Shown here piece by piece: positions 39,511-49,716 of a stretch of 64,000 bases of DNA (its first letter is position 1; each line of letters starts with the position of its first letter). Where the stretch lies: assembly GCA_016125275.1 (NCBI GenBank), contig WGMB01000003.1, positions 1,529,896 through 1,593,895 of the forward strand, written 5' to 3'. Below the pieces are notes generated by a model. That model saw nothing but the letters and a program-made list of their open reading frames with translations. It was not told the origin of the DNA and made no database searches. The position numbers and the translations under genes are program-made. Origin of the DNA: Acidobacteriota bacterium. GTDB lineage: Bacteria; Acidobacteriota; Terriglobia; Bryobacterales; UBA6623.

Positions 39511-40358
39511 GGCATCACCAGCATCGTGCCGCCACGCGGGTTCGGGACCTCGATCGCCCGCGGGTCGATCTGCGGCTGTGCGCCGTAGCCGGCCGGCGGC
39601 GCGTAGCGCGCCCGCACCTGCGCCACGATCGTCACCGGCTGCAAACGGGCCTCGGGCTTGTTCGGCTCGAGCTCGATGCGCACCGCGGAAGGAATCTGTT
39701 GGATGTCGTCCCACACCGTGCGCCACTCGGCGGGCTGCCCCGGGACCCTCGGCTCCCTGAGGTAGGCGAAGGTGCAGCGCGCCAACTGGTCGGCCACAAT
39801 CAACGAATCGGCGCGCGGCGTCACCGGCGCGAACAGAATGCGCGGCCGCTCGCCCACGCGGTCCAAGCCCACCGCAAAGCGGCCCACGCTCAAGCCGCCG
39901 CGAAAGGGAGACTCCGTCAGGATCAGTCGCAGCCCGTTGCTGGCGCTCTGCACGTTCAGCTCCACGATCTGGAGTTGGCCGCGCGCGCCGGCCGCCAGCG
40001 AATACGAGCTTACAAAGCGCATCTGGTCCGGCTCGCCGTCGAAGAACGGCGCCTGCGGCGCTCCGGTGGAAGGCGGCGCCTGGGCGAGCACCGGAACCAT
40101 GCCGGCGAACTGCGCGTGCAGCAGGTGGTTCGAGTTGGCGATCTTGCGGTCGAGCGTCAGCCGTTCCCGAGCGTCCCGCCAGGAGCCGGCGCTCATCTGC
40201 AGCGCCATCACGATGCCGGCCGACAGCAGCCCCAGCAGGCTGACGGCGACCAGAACCTCGATCAGGGTCAGGCCGGCTTCCGCGGAGGCGAGCCGCGCGC
40301 CGCGAGCCGCGGGCCGGGCGTGGCTCGGCGTTGTCAACTTGCGCTCCTCACGGCTCAC
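39507..40358 (-). CDS. gspJ: Minor pseudopilin GspJ
   Basis: A 283-residue minor pseudopilin. The prepilin site is EAG-LTLIEVLVAVSLLGLL with Glu5 of the mature protein. It is preceded by a 29-residue leader that is long for the family; part of that leader is read through a 7-base-period repeat. The mature part shows the GspJ/GspW-like beta block (DQMRFVSSYSLAAGARGQLQIVEL and LARCTFAYLREP). The GTG start at 40358 overlaps the gspI stop (GTGA). Confidence 0.85.
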   Translation of the reverse strand: MSREERKLTTPSHARPAARGARLASAEAGLTLIEVLVAVSLLGLLSAGIVMALQMSAGSWRDARERLTLDRKIANSNHLLHAQFAGMVPVLAQAPPSTGAPQAPFFDGEPDQMRFVSSYSLAAGARGQLQIVELNVQSASNGLRLILTESPFRGGLSVGRFAVGLDRVGERPRILFAPVTPRADSLIVADQLARCTFAYLREPRVPGQPAEWRTVWDDIQQIPSAVRIELEPNKPEARLQPVTIVAQVRARYAPPAGYGAQPQIDPRAIEVPNPRGGTMLVMP

Positions 40359-40375
40359 CGCTCACGAATCCTCAC
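40347..40375. repeat. 7-base-period repeat at the gspI/gspJ junction
   Basis: Units CTCACGG, CTCACCG and CTCACGA follow each other exactly every 7 bases, then a displaced CTCAC. The array covers the end of gspI and the start codon of gspJ. Confidence 0.65.
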
Positions 40376-41776: not shown

Positions 41777-42985
41777 TCACATTCCCAATTGATTGATGCT
41801 CGTAATTGCCAGCATCACACTCAAAATCATAGCGCCGACGACGACTCCCAGGACCAGGATCACGATCGGCTCGAACAAGGCTGTAAAGCGCTTGATCGCC
41901 TCGCGGGTGTCTTTCTCATAGATGTCGGCCATGCGGTGGAACATCTCGTCGAGCCGCCCTGTCTCCTCGCCCACCGTCAGCAAGTGGCCGGCCAGCGACG
42001 GGAATACGCCCGCCTTCTTGATGGGACCGGCGACGCCTTCGCCGCGTTTGACCCCTTTGATCACGACGTCGAGCGCGTTCGAAAGGACTTTGTTCGCCAA
42101 AATTCCTTTCGTAATCGTGATCGCCTGCACCAGCGGCACCGTGTTCGCCACCAGCGTCCCCATGGCGCGGGCGAAGCGCGACACGTCTGCCTTGAGCAGC
42201 GCCTGGCCGAGCACGGGAATCTTCAGCCGAAAGGCGTCCCACTTCAAGCGCCCTTCCGGCGTGCGCGTCCAAGTCCGCAAAGCCGCGGCCCCGGCCGCCA
42301 GAAGCACGATGACGGGGACGCCCCAGGTCTGCACCAAGCTGCTGATGGTGAGCAGGATCTCCATCGGCAGCGGCATCGGAATGTTCGACGACGTAAACGC
42401 TTCGGCAAAACGCGGAATCACGAACCGCAGCAGGATGAAGATCGAGATCGAGCCGACGGTGACCAGCAGCGCCGGATAGGTCAGCGAGCTGATGATGTAG
42501 CCGCGCAGCTCGTCGCGCTGGCGCTCGAACTCGGCCAGCCGGTCCATCACCACCGGCAGCGACCCGGAGACCTCGCCGGCCCGGACCATGTTGACGTAGA
42601 GCTCGGAAAAAACCTCCGGATGCCCGGCCAGGGTGTCGCCGAAGGACCGGCCGCCGCGCAAGGTGCGCTGCAGGTCCTGGACGACGGTCTTGAAGCGCGC
42701 CTGCTCGGTGAGCTCGGAGGTGATCTCGAGCGCGCGGTCGAGCGGCACGCCGGCGTTGAGCAGGGTGGCGACTTCCTGGGTGAAGTGCAGGACGTCGGAA
42801 GCCTTGGCCTTCTTCTTGCCCCCGAAGCTCAGCTCGAACGAGCGCTGCTTCTCCGCCCCGACGAAAACGGGAGTGAGCCCTTGACGGCGCAGCTCGCGGA
42901 CGGCGGCGCGGTCGTCGTCGACGACGAGCGTGCCGGCCCGGGTGCGGCCGTCGGTCGCTAGCGCTTTGTAGTGAAAGGTTGCCAT
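41777..42985 (-). CDS. gspF: Type II secretion inner-membrane platform protein GspF
   Basis: A 402-residue polytopic protein with two GspF repeats, each with a cytoplasmic helical bundle and hydrophobic segments. Blocks seen are FHYKALATDGRTRAGTLV at the start, LLNAGVPLDRALEIT, LRGGRSFGDTL, YVNMVRAGEVSG, the second-copy FARAMGTLVANTVPLVQAI and LLTVGEETGRLDEMFHRMADIYE, and the C-terminal FEPIVILVLGVVVGAMILSVML. It starts just after the broken four-helix-bundle gene, with no obvious ribosome site, suggesting reading-through from upstream. Confidence 0.95.
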   Translation of the reverse strand: MATFHYKALATDGRTRAGTLVVDDDRAAVRELRRQGLTPVFVGAEKQRSFELSFGGKKKAKASDVLHFTQEVATLLNAGVPLDRALEITSELTEQARFKTVVQDLQRTLRGGRSFGDTLAGHPEVFSELYVNMVRAGEVSGSLPVVMDRLAEFERQRDELRGYIISSLTYPALLVTVGSISIFILLRFVIPRFAEAFTSSNIPMPLPMEILLTISSLVQTWGVPVIVLLAAGAAALRTWTRTPEGRLKWDAFRLKIPVLGQALLKADVSRFARAMGTLVANTVPLVQAITITKGILANKVLSNALDVVIKGVKRGEGVAGPIKKAGVFPSLAGHLLTVGEETGRLDEMFHRMADIYEKDTREAIKRFTALFEPIVILVLGVVVGAMILSVMLAITSINQLGM

Positions 42986-42987
42986 GT

Positions 42988-43373
42988 CTAGACCGTTGAC
43001 GGCGGACGGTTGATCCGTTGACCGAGGTAGGACTGCAGCCCGCCGAGCATCTGTCCGACTCGACCGGCAAGAGTTTGTAGCCCCCGACTACGTCCGGTTG
43101 GGCATATCCGAGGTCAAGGGTGAGCATGAGAAGACATTTCACTTCCTGCAAAGACCCATCTGCAATGCGCGCAAATCGGAGCATCTCCCCTTCAGAGCGT
43201 CGCCCAAAGCCCTCGGCTAAGTTCGCTTCGATGGATACGGCGGCCCGCCGAATCTGGCTGGTCATACCAAACAGCTCATCCTTGGGAAACGCCTTCGTCA
43301 CTCGGTAAACCGCGAGCGTCAACTGGTGCGCCGCCTTCCAGGCGTCCAGATCCTCGAAGGATCGGATGTTCAT
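42988..43373 (-). pseudogene. Frameshifted S23/IVP-type four-helix-bundle protein gene inside the type II operon
   Basis: From ATG 43373 the frame encodes MNIRSFEDLDAWKAAHQLTL, VYRVTKAFPKDELFGMTSQI and RRAAVSIEANLAEGFGRRSE, the hallmarks of the 23S-intervening-sequence (S23, Avd-related) four-helix-bundle family. After GYAQPD the in-frame reading becomes meaningless, while the frame one base off continues with TLAGRVGQMLGGLQSYLGQR and stops at 42988-42990. So about one base has been lost near 43085-43100. Expected length is about 125 residues. It could be a pseudogene, a sequencing error or programmed frameshifting. Arrays of a 7-base repeat flank it in inverted orientation. Confidence 0.65.
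42993..43021. repeat. 7-base-period repeat, left flank of the four-helix-bundle gene
   Basis: Units CCGTTGA, CGGCGGA, CGGTTGA, one extra T, then CCGTTGA. Read in reverse complement, it resembles the right-flank array, including the odd base at the same place. It also encodes the C terminus of the four-helix-bundle gene. Confidence 0.7.
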
Positions 43374-43386
43374 CGTCGCTCTCTGT

Positions 43387-43422
43387 CGGTCAACGGTTCA
43401 CGGATCAACCGTCTACGGCTCA
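43387..43422. repeat. 7-base-period repeat, right flank of the four-helix-bundle gene
   Basis: Units CGGTCAA, CGGTTCA, CGGATCA, one extra A, CCGTCTA, CGGCTCA. It runs from the upstream region of the four-helix-bundle gene into the stop codon of gspE. Confidence 0.7.
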
Positions 43423-45117
43423 AAACTCCTGCGTCACCCGCACCACCTCTTCCACCGTCGTCACACCCTTCTCGATCTTCATCCAGCCGTCTTCCCGCAA
43501 GCTCCGCATCCCATTCCGCCGCGCCGCGTCCGTCAGCACGCCCGCGTCGGAATTCTTCATCACCAGCCCGCGAATCTCCTCGTTGAGCTCCATCAGCTCA
43601 AAGATTCCCTGCCGGCCGCGATAGCCCGTCCCGCGGCAGTTCTCGCAGCCCGCGCCGCGAAACGTCCGAATTCGCCGCCCTTCCGGGTTGATCACGTCGT
43701 CGCTCGCGATCCGGCACTCCGAACAGATCAGCCGCACCAGCCGCTGCGCCAGGACACCGACCACCGACGACGTGATCAGGTACGGCTCCACGCCCATGTC
43801 CGTCAGCCGAGTCACGGCGCTGGGGGCGTCGTTGGTGTGCAGCGTCGAATAGACGAAGTGGCCCGTCAGCGCCGAGCGGATCGCGATGTCCGCCGTCTCC
43901 CGGTCACGAATCTCGCCCACCATGATCACGTCCGGATCCTGGCGGACGATGTGCCGCAACCCGGCCGAAAACGTCAGCCCGATCGTCGAGTTGACGTGGA
44001 TCTGGTTGATCCCGTCCATCTGGTACTCGACCGGGTCCTCGATCGTGATGATCTTCTTGTCCGCCGTGTTGATGCGCTTCAACGCCGAGTACAGCGTGGT
44101 CGATTTGCCCGAGCCCGTCGGCCCCGTCACCAGAAAAATCCCGTGCGGCAGCGTCGTATAGAACTCCATCCGCCGCAGCATCACGTCGTCGAAGCCCAGC
44201 CGCCCCAGCTCGTAGAAATCCGTCGCCGAGCGGTCGAGCAGGCGCATCACGACCGATTCGCCATAGAGCGTCGGCAAGGTCGAGACGCGCAAGTCGACCT
44301 CATGCCCCATCACCTTGATCTTGATGCGGCCGTCTTGCGGCAGCCGCCGCTCGGCGATGTTCAGCCGCGCCATCAGCTTCAGGCGCGAGGTGATCGCCGC
44401 GCGCAGCTCACGGGCCGGCGGCTCCTGCTCCTGCAACACGCCGTCCACGCGGAAGCGGATGCGGAACTCCTTCTCGAACGGCTCCACGTGGATGTCCGAC
44501 GAGCGTGTGTCGAGCGCCCGGGCGATCATCGCGTTGACGTAGCGGATGACCGGCGCCTCGCTCGCCATGTCCCGCAGGTGCTCGATCTCCGCCGCGTCGT
44601 CGCCGCCGGCAAAGCCGAACTCGTCGTCGTCCTTCTTCTCTTCCGCCCCAAAAAAGCGGTCGATCGCGTCGAGGATGTCGGTCTCGGCCGCCAGCGCCGT
44701 CTGCACGTCGCAGCCGGAGAAGCGCCGGATCGTCGAAATCGTCTCGAAGTCCAGCGGGTCGGTCATCGCCACCCACAGCACGTCGCCTTCCTGCGCCAGC
44801 GGCAGGAACTGGAACTGGCGCATCGTGCGCGGCAGAATGCCCTCGATCTCAGGGACGATCTCGGGGAAGCGATCGGCCGTCAAAAACTCGATCTCGAGCT
44901 GCTCGGCCAGCGTCGTCAGCACCTCGCGCGGCGCCACGAAGCCCAAGTCGATCAGAATGCGGCCGATCCGGTCGCCGCGTTCGCGCTGCAGCTCGAGCGC
45001 CTTCTCCAAATCGTCGGCGTCGAGCGCACCCTTGGCGATCAGCCGCTCGCCCAACCGCCCGCGCAACCGCGGGTCGACCGCTCGACTCTTCCCTGTGCTG
45101 CTATTGACCTCAGCCAT
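43420..45117 (-). CDS. gspE: Type II secretion ATPase GspE
   Basis: A 565-residue cytoplasmic AAA-like ATPase that drives pseudopilus assembly. An N-terminal MshEN-like domain (about 20-160: GALDADDLEKALELQRERGD, TMRQFQFLPLAQEGDVLWVAM) is followed by the core: Walker A GPTGSGKST at 332-340, Asp box (IEDPVEYQMDGINQIHVN), Walker B (DPDVIMVGEIRDRETA) and His box (GHFVYSTLHTNDAPSA). A tetracysteine zinc motif (CSEC, later CENC) is near 480-515. It is the first gsp gene after three regulatory/unknown genes; its stop lies in a repeat array next to the broken four-helix-bundle gene. Confidence 0.96.
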   Translation of the reverse strand: MAEVNSSTGKSRAVDPRLRGRLGERLIAKGALDADDLEKALELQRERGDRIGRILIDLGFVAPREVLTTLAEQLEIEFLTADRFPEIVPEIEGILPRTMRQFQFLPLAQEGDVLWVAMTDPLDFETISTIRRFSGCDVQTALAAETDILDAIDRFFGAEEKKDDDEFGFAGGDDAAEIEHLRDMASEAPVIRYVNAMIARALDTRSSDIHVEPFEKEFRIRFRVDGVLQEQEPPARELRAAITSRLKLMARLNIAERRLPQDGRIKIKVMGHEVDLRVSTLPTLYGESVVMRLLDRSATDFYELGRLGFDDVMLRRMEFYTTLPHGIFLVTGPTGSGKSTTLYSALKRINTADKKIITIEDPVEYQMDGINQIHVNSTIGLTFSAGLRHIVRQDPDVIMVGEIRDRETADIAIRSALTGHFVYSTLHTNDAPSAVTRLTDMGVEPYLITSSVVGVLAQRLVRLICSECRIASDDVINPEGRRIRTFRGAGCENCRGTGYRGRQGIFELMELNEEIRGLVMKNSDAGVLTDAARRNGMRSLREDGWMKIEKGVTTVEEVVRVTQEF

Positions 45118-48249: not shown

Positions 48250-48259
48250 AACGGCAGAC

Positions 48260-48293
48260 AGTGAGCAGTGAACAGTGAGCGGTGAACAGTGGT
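48260..48293. repeat. 7-base-period repeat at the wzm/sulfatase junction
   Basis: Units AGTGAGC, AGTGAAC, AGTGAGC, GGTGAAC, AGTG step exactly 7 bases. The GTG start of the sulfatase (48289) lies in the last unit. Confidence 0.75.
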
Positions 48294-49716
48294 GAAGAAA
48301 GCGCAAGCCCAACTCCTTCGGTCAACCGTCCGCCGGTCAACGGTCCAAGCGTCGGCGGTCACCCTCCTCCTTGCCTTCACCCTGCTCGCCCCCGGCTCCT
48401 TCGCCGCCGAGCGACCCAACGTCATCCTGCTGCTGGCCGACGATCTCGGCTGGGGAGACCTGGGCGTCTATGGCGGCCGCTCCACGCTCACCCCCAACCT
48501 CGACGCGCTCGCCGCCCACGGCACGCGCCTCGTCAACTACTACTCGACCTCGGCGGTCTGCACGCCCGCTCGAGCCAGTCTGCTGACCGGCCGCTACCCG
48601 CTGCGCTTGGGCATCACCAAACACTTTCCGGACGACGAGAGCCACCTGCCGGCGGAATCGGTCACCATCGCCGAGCTGCTCCAAGCCGCCGGCTACCGCA
48701 CCGGCCACGTCGGCAAGTGGCACCTCGGCGGCCTGCACCAGAAGCACATCGACGACCGTGCGCATTCCATTCCCGGGCCGCATGAGCACGGCTTCGAGGA
48801 ATACCTGACGCAGCTCGAAGATCCGCCGGTCCGGGTTCCGCTCGGCCGCGAGAACCGCATGTACCGCGACGGCGGCAAGCACCTGGTGCGCAACGACGAG
48901 AACGTCCCGCCCGACCCTCGCTACTACACCGACATCAACGGCGACGAAGCCATCCGCCTAGTCGAGAAATTCCACGGCGAAGGCAAGCCGTTCTTCCTGA
49001 ACCTCTGGTGGCTCGTGCCGCACAAGCCCTACGAGCCGGCGCCCGAACCCTTCTTCGGGATGTACGAGGGCTGGGCCGACGGCGACCAGCGCAAGTTCCG
49101 CTCGATGCTCAGCCACATGGACCACAAGGTCGGCGAGCTCGTCGCCAAGCTCGAAGAGCTGGGCATCGCCGACAACACGCTGATCGTCTTCACCTCGGAC
49201 AACGGCGGCGCCTACGAGGCTGACATCGGTCCCTGGAAAGGCGGCAAGACGGACCTGCACGGCGGCGGCGTGCGGGTTCCGTACATCGCGGTCTGGCCCG
49301 GGAAGATCCCGGCGGGCGTGGTGAGCCGGGAGGTCGCCAACCACAACGACCTGCTGCCGACCTTCTGCGCCGCCGCCGGCGTCGAGCCGCCCGCCGAGAT
49401 CGACGGCCTGAACCTGCTGCCGCACCTCACTGACGGCGCGCCGGTGCTGGGCCGCGGCCCCATCTTCTGGCAAATGGATTTGTACAAGTCGATCCAGCGT
49501 CACTATCCCAAGCCCGAGCCCTACGCCACCGAAGCCGTGCAGGAAGGCCGCTGGAAGCTGCTCTCCCGCGACGGCAAGCCGGTGGAGCTGTTCGACATCG
49601 ACGCCGACCCGCAAGAGCGCGACAACCTGCTGCCGGACTTCCCCGAGGTCGCAGGGCGGCTGAGCCGTCAAGTCAAGGCCTTCTTGGCCGAACCGAGAAT
49701 GAGCCCGCTGCCCTAA
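48289..49716 (+). CDS. Secreted arylsulfatase-family sulfatase
   Basis: A 475-residue sulfatase of the alkaline phosphatase superfamily. Active-site blocks: NVILLLADDLGWGDLG (metal Asp pair), CTPARASLLTGRYPLR with Cys91 that is converted to formylglycine (CxPxR), TGHVGKWHLGG (Lys/His) and FTSDNGGAYE (metal Asp/Asn). It probably removes sulfate esters from polysaccharides. The signal peptide (VTLLLAFTLLAPGSFAA) is preceded by about 20 residues (AQAQLLRSTVRRSTVQASA) read through repeat DNA. The start is a GTG at 48289 in a repeat unit; no better start is seen. It separates wzm from wzt. Confidence 0.88.
   Translation: MVKKAQAQLLRSTVRRSTVQASAVTLLLAFTLLAPGSFAAERPNVILLLADDLGWGDLGVYGGRSTLTPNLDALAAHGTRLVNYYSTSAVCTPARASLLTGRYPLRLGITKHFPDDESHLPAESVTIAELLQAAGYRTGHVGKWHLGGLHQKHIDDRAHSIPGPHEHGFEEYLTQLEDPPVRVPLGRENRMYRDGGKHLVRNDENVPPDPRYYTDINGDEAIRLVEKFHGEGKPFFLNLWWLVPHKPYEPAPEPFFGMYEGWADGDQRKFRSMLSHMDHKVGELVAKLEELGIADNTLIVFTSDNGGAYEADIGPWKGGKTDLHGGGVRVPYIAVWPGKIPAGVVSREVANHNDLLPTFCAAAGVEPPAEIDGLNLLPHLTDGAPVLGRGPIFWQMDLYKSIQRHYPKPEPYATEAVQEGRWKLLSRDGKPVELFDIDADPQERDNLLPDFPEVAGRLSRQVKAFLAEPRMSPLP
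48319..48361. repeat. 7/8-base-period repeat inside the sulfatase N terminus
   Basis: Units CGGTCAA, CCGTCCG, CCGGTCAA, CGGTCCA, AGCGTCGG, CGGTCAC: mostly 7 bases, some 8. It encodes the positively charged start of the sulfatase signal sequence. Confidence 0.65.

Follow-up and report, generated by a model that had tools for sequence, protein, structure and literature searches.

S23-family genes and inverted arrays of seven-base repeats: from one type II secretion operon to an association across bacteria

Introduction

In one Acidobacteriota genome, the genes gspE and gspF of a type II secretion operon are separated by a small cassette, made of a gene of the S23/IVP family and a short array of seven-base repeats at each of its ends. 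Is this arrangement peculiar to one operon, or do S23 genes and heptamer arrays belong together? The cassette lies in a stretch of 64,000 nucleotides (contig WGMB01000003.1), here called the window, and an original prediction made from its letters alone had described it as a small mobile or repeat-linked unit. S23/IVP proteins have solved structures and, to our knowledge, no established function.

Reports exist on S23 genes and on heptamer repeats, and one covers both for a single element. In the intervening sequence (IVS) of the Coxiella burnetii 23S rRNA, two or three tandem GACAGAT heptamers, depending on the strain, precede an S23 ORF, and the first of them opens with the RNase III site; the ORF is decaying and the protein probably not expressed, and the accessible part of that paper ties the heptamers to this one element and does not generalise them (PMC4990558). 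In a survey with SPADE, heptamers were the most abundant intergenic period, and its accessible text states that their function is without a clear clue (PMC6344855). Translational regulation was proposed for TAACTGA repeats (MacGregor, 2015; PMC4679880, in the portion available), and 70 and 75 convergent pairs of GGGAATC arrays are given for two Xanthomonas genomes in the available portion of PMC4692102. S23 is unmentioned in the main text of the last two papers, and PMC6344855 contains neither '23S' nor 'four helix'.

Results

The cassette between gspE and gspF

On the minus strand, the gspE stop codon (43420-43422) and the gspF start (42983-42985) enclose 434 nt that lie outside any 23S rRNA gene (Table 1). 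For the gene with its start at 43373, the match to PF05635 (23S_rRNA_IVP) scores 109 bits (1.6e-31, cut-off 33.8) and that to TIGR02436 98 bits (cut-off 24), which bears out its original assignment to the S23/IVP family. The best NCBIfam models of the neighbours are TIGR02533 gspE (613 bits, slightly below the cut-off of 630) and TIGR02120 GspF (372 bits, below the cut-off of 424). The original prediction needs a correction here: as sequenced the gene is not intact, for it is S23-like to about residue 98, changes frame near a five-base homopolymer (43081-43085), and resumes in another frame with an S23-like tail that stops at 42989-42991. With the homopolymer so close, either the lesion is genuine or the sequence contains an error at this point. 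The final codons and the stop fall within the 3' array.

The two arrays are related in inverted orientation, as had been predicted: 18 of 20 aligned columns are identical, the local score is 15 versus 7 for the direct comparison, and an eight-base step can be read inside both. Like 23S rRNA IVS, the cassette has inverted repeats at its ends with an S23 ORF between them. In the predicted RNA fold, the 3' array pairs with the 5' array and closes the unit. An exceptional fold energy was considered and rejected, since the window copy is ordinary (z -1.0, with 15 of 100 shuffles equally good); a second copy in the genome, L001, has z -2.1. In Pfam, PF05635 is the sole match of the window copy, which has no Y1 (HUH) transposase domain, and a family search of the unit gave no transposase match.

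Table 1. Features of the cassette, its neighbours and further arrays in the window
Feature	Coordinates	Strand	Basis or remark
S23 cassette, gspE stop to gspF start	42986..43419	-	434-nt gap
5' heptamer array GCCGTAG ACGGTTG ATCCGTG AACCGTT GACCG	43387..43419	-	right after gspE stop codon
S23/IVP gene (four-helix bundle) with altered frame	42989..43373	-	PF05635 109 bits; three-frame reading
3' heptamer array, inverted relative of 5' array	42986..43024	-	alignment
gspE, type II secretion ATPase, upstream neighbour	43420..45117	-	T2SSE 467 bits
gspF, downstream neighbour	41777..42985	-	T2SSF 178 bits
Gene-less convergent heptamer array pair	48259..48346	.	first array 18/18; second: tandem repeat, sequence, pattern match
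Possible solo heptamer array	40347..40367	-	17/18, at junction of two ORFs

The gene-less convergent pair in the window combines two dialects, of the CAGTGAG and CCGTTGA types, and is preceded by an ORF that we take to be ABC-transporter permease-like. The possible solo array was found at a threshold of 17/18, at which 464 kb contained 7 real matches and 3 in shuffled sequence; the two ORFs that meet there presumably have prepilin-like starts.

A second copy and scattered arrays in the host genome

The host genome (G000, 7.55 Mb in 20 contigs) holds two matches to PF05635. L001, the second of these, keeps an open frame throughout and is bounded by inverted CCGTGAA/CCGTGAG-dialect arrays (inverted score 22.5); it lies between two genes that we take, from their sequences, to be a PilB/GspE type ATPase gene and a pilM-like gene. 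At no more than 57% likeness, the two S23 copies give no sign of a recent burst. Both have secretion or pilus type genes as neighbours, and a reverse transcriptase is not an immediate neighbour of either; of the two reverse transcriptase matches in this genome, the one with a listed place is on contig C8.

A 3-heptamer pattern has 139 overlapping matches in G000 versus 0 for the reversed pattern. Places were listed for the first 100 of these, and 15 stretches around the listed sites comprise solo arrays, gene-less convergent pairs and one S23 unit. As the genome has two S23 genes and its other arrays stand without one, the link goes from the S23 gene to arrays and not the reverse, which is also the case in REP-RAYT systems. 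By the original prediction, repeats scattered without connection to such genes would have spoken against it: the arrays of G000 other than those beside its two S23 genes are indeed without one, but both S23 genes carry inverted arrays. G000 has three Y1 loci, each of about 3.3 kb, and no period-7 array is seen in them. Long CAGTGAG arrays were seen at two contig ends (L193, 3804-3936, at the end of C5; L207, 5-137, at the start of C6), which suggests that heptamer arrays break the assembly.

Empty, filled and eroded sites in relatives

The gspE-gspF junction was surveyed in 41 genomes (G000 and 40 relatives). GspF matched within the applied limit in 31 of them, and of the 30 loci retrieved, 26 (our own and 25 relatives) had a resolved gspE next to gspF and 4 did not. 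The gap measures -1 to 9 nt in 17 of the 25 relatives and 29-55 nt in 4. The comparison of junctions that had been proposed thus finds the site mostly empty, and otherwise filled, eroded or differently filled. In G004, from another genus of the same family, it is occupied by an uninterrupted S23 gene of 123 aa between inverted TCGTGAT-type arrays. The inserts in G003 and G005 are homologous to that of G004 (64% identity; scores 69 and 44.5, shuffled maxima 21 and 15.5) and are read, from these alignments, as probable eroded S23 copies. The window insert aligns above shuffles with the insert of G004, and not with those of G003 and G005. In the closest relative by GspE (G001, 89%; locus L056), this place is taken by a transposase gene of the IS200/IS605 type together with inverted AGCCCAGGGC palindromes, so the junction accepts different small elements.

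Because the junction is also filled in G004 and eroded in G003 and G005, the window copy may be an inherited insertion rather than a fresh one. The window S23 groups with L001, with support that is not firm (99/62 in the large tree, 90/64 in the small one) and with G004 adjoining; a tree uniting the window and G004 proteins is not rejected (p-AU 0.46). These trees would fit an old insertion between gspE and gspF from which a copy later arose at another site, and they would also fit insertions that occurred separately. The relatives with empty sites are too diverged for defining a target-site duplication.

For the L001 site, the pilM-like gene was found in 38 relatives, of which 19 were fetched and read. 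None of these 19 has an S23 gene there (the gaps are too short or, in the three relatives with longer ones, there is no PF05635 place); the gap is 7-35 nt in 16, including the closest relative (29 nt), and 227-285 nt in L233, L236 and L240, where the starts are estimated and the value for L240 is probably too high. Elsewhere in the order, operon junctions that look the same hold an S23 gene in more than one genome (L089/L094, L102/L103/L107 and L105/L111); by eye we take them to be nuo, lysS-lolC and murG junctions.

Flanks of S23 loci across bacteria

The flanks were then compared over 110 loci, composed of the best 80 of 571 confirmed candidates from a contig scan and 30 loci (best places) from G000 and its relatives. 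According to the record titles, the set covers Acidobacteriota, Bacteroidota, Chloroflexota, Verrucomicrobiota, Cyanobacteriota, Pseudomonadota, Planctomycetota, Nitrospirota, Spirochaetota and Patescibacteria. On each side 150 nt were analysed; at least 16 of 21 comparisons defined a period-7 array, and a score of at least 12 defined inverted similarity.

In this set, including the best 80 of 571, a period-7 array is present on at least one side of 77 of the 110 loci and on both sides of 26, versus 41 and 2 of 1099 control window pairs drawn from the same loci. The arrays are upstream in 62 cases (63 if L126, removed for an N in its upstream flank, is kept) and downstream in 41, and any other period from 4 to 12 occurs at 0-5 of these 110 loci per side (best 80 of 571 included). 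The background frequency of period 7 is 59/3300 in random single windows, and 22/332 and 18/297 in the flanks of other long ORFs. Inverted similarity between the flanks is found at 76 of 108 loci, again with the best 80 of 571 and after two loci had been dropped as too short, in comparison with 20/1099 control pairs and 3.9% of swapped partners; direct similarity occurs at 13 of these 108. After thinning of the same collection (best 80 of 571 plus 30) to below 70% protein identity, 62/86 loci have an array and 58/85 inverted flanks. Neither feature is present at 19 of the 110 loci, best 80 of 571 included.

Plasmids give a similar picture. Twelve of 36 plasmid records with an S23 match were analysed (11 cyanobacterial and 1 from Azospirillum; L214 and L220 look like the same arrangement), and a period-7 array on at least one side was found in 11/12 and inverted similarity in 10/12 (swapped partners 9%). 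The arrays of L216 are direct and not inverted, L212 has no inverted similarity, L213 has an eight-base period, and L218 and L222 also reach 16 at period 6 or 8. The search for a recurrent association, which the original prediction had called for, therefore returned one both in the 110-locus set and on plasmids, and that S23 genes are associated with heptamer arrays is practically certain. Several plasmid S23 genes lie inside operons, cas operons among them; on cyanobacterial plasmids (L213, L216, L217) the orders cas10 - S23 - cmr3 and, in two genera, cas6 - S23 - cas4 were noted.

Orientation bias as a sign of insertion at the RNA level was rejected, as it is near background: with genes called by a simple longest-ORF rule, 63 of 100 S23 genes are co-oriented with both neighbours, versus 56% of 113 control triples. 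In a weak test, exact matches to three conserved rRNA motifs were found at 0 of the 110 loci (including the best 80 of 571), and a phage collection gave no match to the L001 protein.

The heptamer core and its co-variation with the protein

The heptamer sequence varies from locus to locus. A core, RTNAG on the upstream strand, was framed on the first 30 loci and checked on 65 later heptamers. Outside the framing set it is complete in 25/65, as against 0/65 in reverse orientation and 9.5% of shuffles.

Protein and heptamer distances are correlated (Mantel rho 0.30, 85 loci with L126 included). Restricted to pairs between phyla, with phylum labels set by hand and L126 removed, rho is 0.28 (2742 pairs, 83 loci), a value that 0/999 within-phylum shuffles of the heptamers reach (maximum 0.178) and that a GC correction leaves at 0.28. 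The S23 tree mixes phyla. As a gene and its flanks travelling together would also give co-variation, this result supports a unit of matched parts and is compatible with recognition without being proof of it.

Arrays and S23 genes in the genomes of the order

Among 150 genomes of the host order, RTNAG x4 arrays are present in 37, PF05635 above the cut-off in 41, and both in 23, which corresponds to an odds ratio of 8.7 and a p-value of 2e-7; since the genomes are related and not independent, this and the following co-occurrence p-values are optimistic. When PF05635 matches at E 0.001 or better are counted (54 genomes), the odds ratio is 5.1 (p 5e-5). When arrays beside S23 genes are discounted, on places compared by eye, 22 genomes retain both (OR 7.9, p 7e-7); the single array of G099 adjoins its S23 gene. 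In one array-positive genome, G002, the reversed-pattern control is positive as well, and leaving it out gives an odds ratio of 9.4. It is among the 14 of the 37 array genomes in which no S23 gene exceeds the cut-off.

Scattered arrays also resemble the S23 array of their own genome more than those of other genomes, with a mean distance of 1.97 versus 2.90 (permutation p 0.0002). This comparison used 13 of 16 genomes, three with weak arrays of their own having been dropped, and scattered arrays picked from listings; G096 and G047 are plain exceptions.

Two candidate mobilisers were tried in the 150 genomes and rejected. Reverse transcriptase (PF00078) is tied neither to arrays (OR 1.3, p 0.56) nor to S23 (p 0.18). 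The Y1 transposase is weakly tied to arrays (OR 2.8, p 0.039), and the Y1 loci of G000 are without them. With no tie for the first and a weak one for the second, no mobiliser was identified.

The S23 protein

The model of the L001 protein consists of four long helices (pLDDT 95.5) and superimposes on 2gsc, Xanthomonas campestris XCC0516, with a TM-score of 0.93; it also matches 2rld. The genome that encodes XCC0516 is reported to contain 186 GGGAATC arrays. The similarity of the L001 model to Avd (4dwl chain D, TM 0.78; also the DGR ribonucleoprotein 8ub7) and, in sequence, a match to bAvd that is weak (20 bits, cut-off 40) agree with the relation to Avd that had been proposed and that is already in print in the accessible part of PMC10053308. 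At E up to 10, PF05635 and the weak bAvd match are the only Pfam matches of L001, with no Y1 (HUH) transposase among them.

In 111 sequences, including the best 80 of 571, residues W12, Y23, F29, P30, E33, Q40, R43, N51, E54, G55, S74 and E77 are at least 97% conserved, and the median net charge is +3 (same 111, best 80 of 571 included). The dN/dS ratio is 0.05-0.18 in 13 of the 17 S23 pairs tried, which indicates purifying selection and a protein in use in those lineages. Saturation prevented a ratio for L087-L098, L139-L185 and L155-L173, the last of which has probably lost codon register; the value of 1.78 for L149-L165 was set aside, as non-synonymous change at 0.72 of sites points to the same fault.

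Discussion

Among the known systems closest to these units are three kinds of element. The Coxiella IVS, from what can be gathered in the available part of PMC4990558, is like the window unit in its length of about 430 nt, its S23 ORF, its complementary stem-forming ends and its heptamers, and differs in lying inside rRNA, whereas the window unit lies between two protein genes of an operon. By this analogy, it fits the class of S23 genes with heptamer arrays. RAYT genes are always found between inverted REPs, with which they apparently co-evolve and whose abundance they predict (PMC2817692, in the part accessible). As far as that part allows a comparison, S23 units share with them a small gene between inverted repeats (inverted flanks at 76/108 loci, with the best 80 of 571), repeats spread through the genome (G000), co-variation of gene and repeat, and repeats that are commoner where the gene is present. 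Judged on the same portion, RAYT is a Y1 tyrosine transposase, whereas S23 is a four-helix bundle in which no transposase domain was found, and REPs are palindromic, whereas the S23 repeats are 7-base tandem arrays, and not every S23 locus has them inverted on its two sides. The Avd protein of diversity-generating retroelements, to the extent that the available source describes it, has its fold in common with the L001 protein, and the S23 genes of G000 have no adjoining reverse transcriptase.

Our preferred reading, which we hold to be probable though by no means secure, is that S23 recognises its own heptamer array, and that the unit together with the scattered arrays makes up a selfish system of the REP-RAYT kind, to which the rRNA IVS also belong. 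The unit would be an S23 (PF05635) gene between inverted 7-base arrays, compact, selfish or mobile-like, and bacteria-wide. The Avd-like bundle would most likely recognise the cognate array as nucleic acid, and such recognition would protect, spread or express the unit. Gene-less arrays of the same dialect would be its non-autonomous relatives. Because pairing between the arrays is possible in RNA, a transcript can contain the unit in the form of a closed stem, as with the 23S rRNA IVS. No strand-breaking or copying enzyme is encoded in the unit, and one would have to be supplied by the host or by another element. The description as a mobile or repeat-linked unit stands as regards insertion and recurrent association, which together with co-variation are what the data show; the window copy is possibly an inherited insertion, and it is mobility and the binding of arrays by S23 that we infer.

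Three other explanations compete with this reading, to very different degrees. That the window arrangement is a local accident, its repeats unlinked to S23 genes, would suit a genome with two S23 genes and other arrays without S23; it is contradicted by the inverted flanking arrays at both of these genes, by most of the 110 loci (including the best 80 of 571) and by 11/12 plasmid loci, and appears extremely improbable. It is easier to conceive that the arrays are spread by another enzyme (an IS200-like TnpA or a reverse transcriptase) or by slippage, and that S23 is a captured passenger. The unit contains no catalytic gene, G001 has an IS200/IS605 transposase with inverted palindromes at the same junction, and Y1_Tnp and arrays weakly co-occur. 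Co-variation with the repeat across phyla, however, is not what one would expect of a gene captured by chance, nor would such a gene be expected to predict arrays at other places in its genome, and the three Y1 loci of G000 are devoid of period-7 arrays; we regard this explanation as rather improbable.

More weight is due to the idea that S23 is a post-transcriptional regulator in the service of the host, with the arrays as its RNA binding sites close to where genes start and end, those of its own gene autoregulatory, and nothing selfish or mobile involved. Purifying selection on S23 and the intergenic position of the arrays speak for it, as does the translational regulation proposed for TAACTGA (PMC4679880, in its accessible portion), the reverse complement of which fits the RTNAG core. 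For such a regulator, the patchy occurrence of S23 (above the cut-off in 41/150 genomes of the order) counts against the idea, and eroded copies and empty sites, the mixing of phyla in the S23 tree and the entry of S23 into unrelated operons, cas among them, would all be atypical, so that we consider it unlikely, if the most serious of the three.

In a wider and more tentative version of the preferred reading, which may well prove too broad, the commonest intergenic tandem repeats of prokaryotes would be largely the footprint of one class of S23-specified elements, with a dialect for each S23 lineage, the rRNA IVS as members, and a REP-RAYT-like organisation in which a non-catalytic protein takes the part of the transposase. 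The link between S23 and heptamers joins an unexplained protein family to unexplained bacterial seven-base repeats, and both questions become testable by one binding assay. It gives a concrete protein-repeat code to decipher, heptamer dialect against protein, offers an origin for the intervening sequences of 23S rRNA, and provides a possible cellular context for Avd-like proteins. What appears to be new here is the link as a bacteria-wide class; the single Coxiella element and the relation of PF05635 to Avd were known already. No general link between S23 and heptamer arrays was found in the open-access literature, the scope of our search, outside which lie most subscription papers and all preprints. 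Going by the accessible portions of the heptamer reports, the published repeats and the S23 arrays are alike in being intergenic 7-base arrays, and those of Xanthomonas often form convergent pairs. One of the GGGAATC-bearing Xanthomonas species is also the source of the S23 structure 2gsc.
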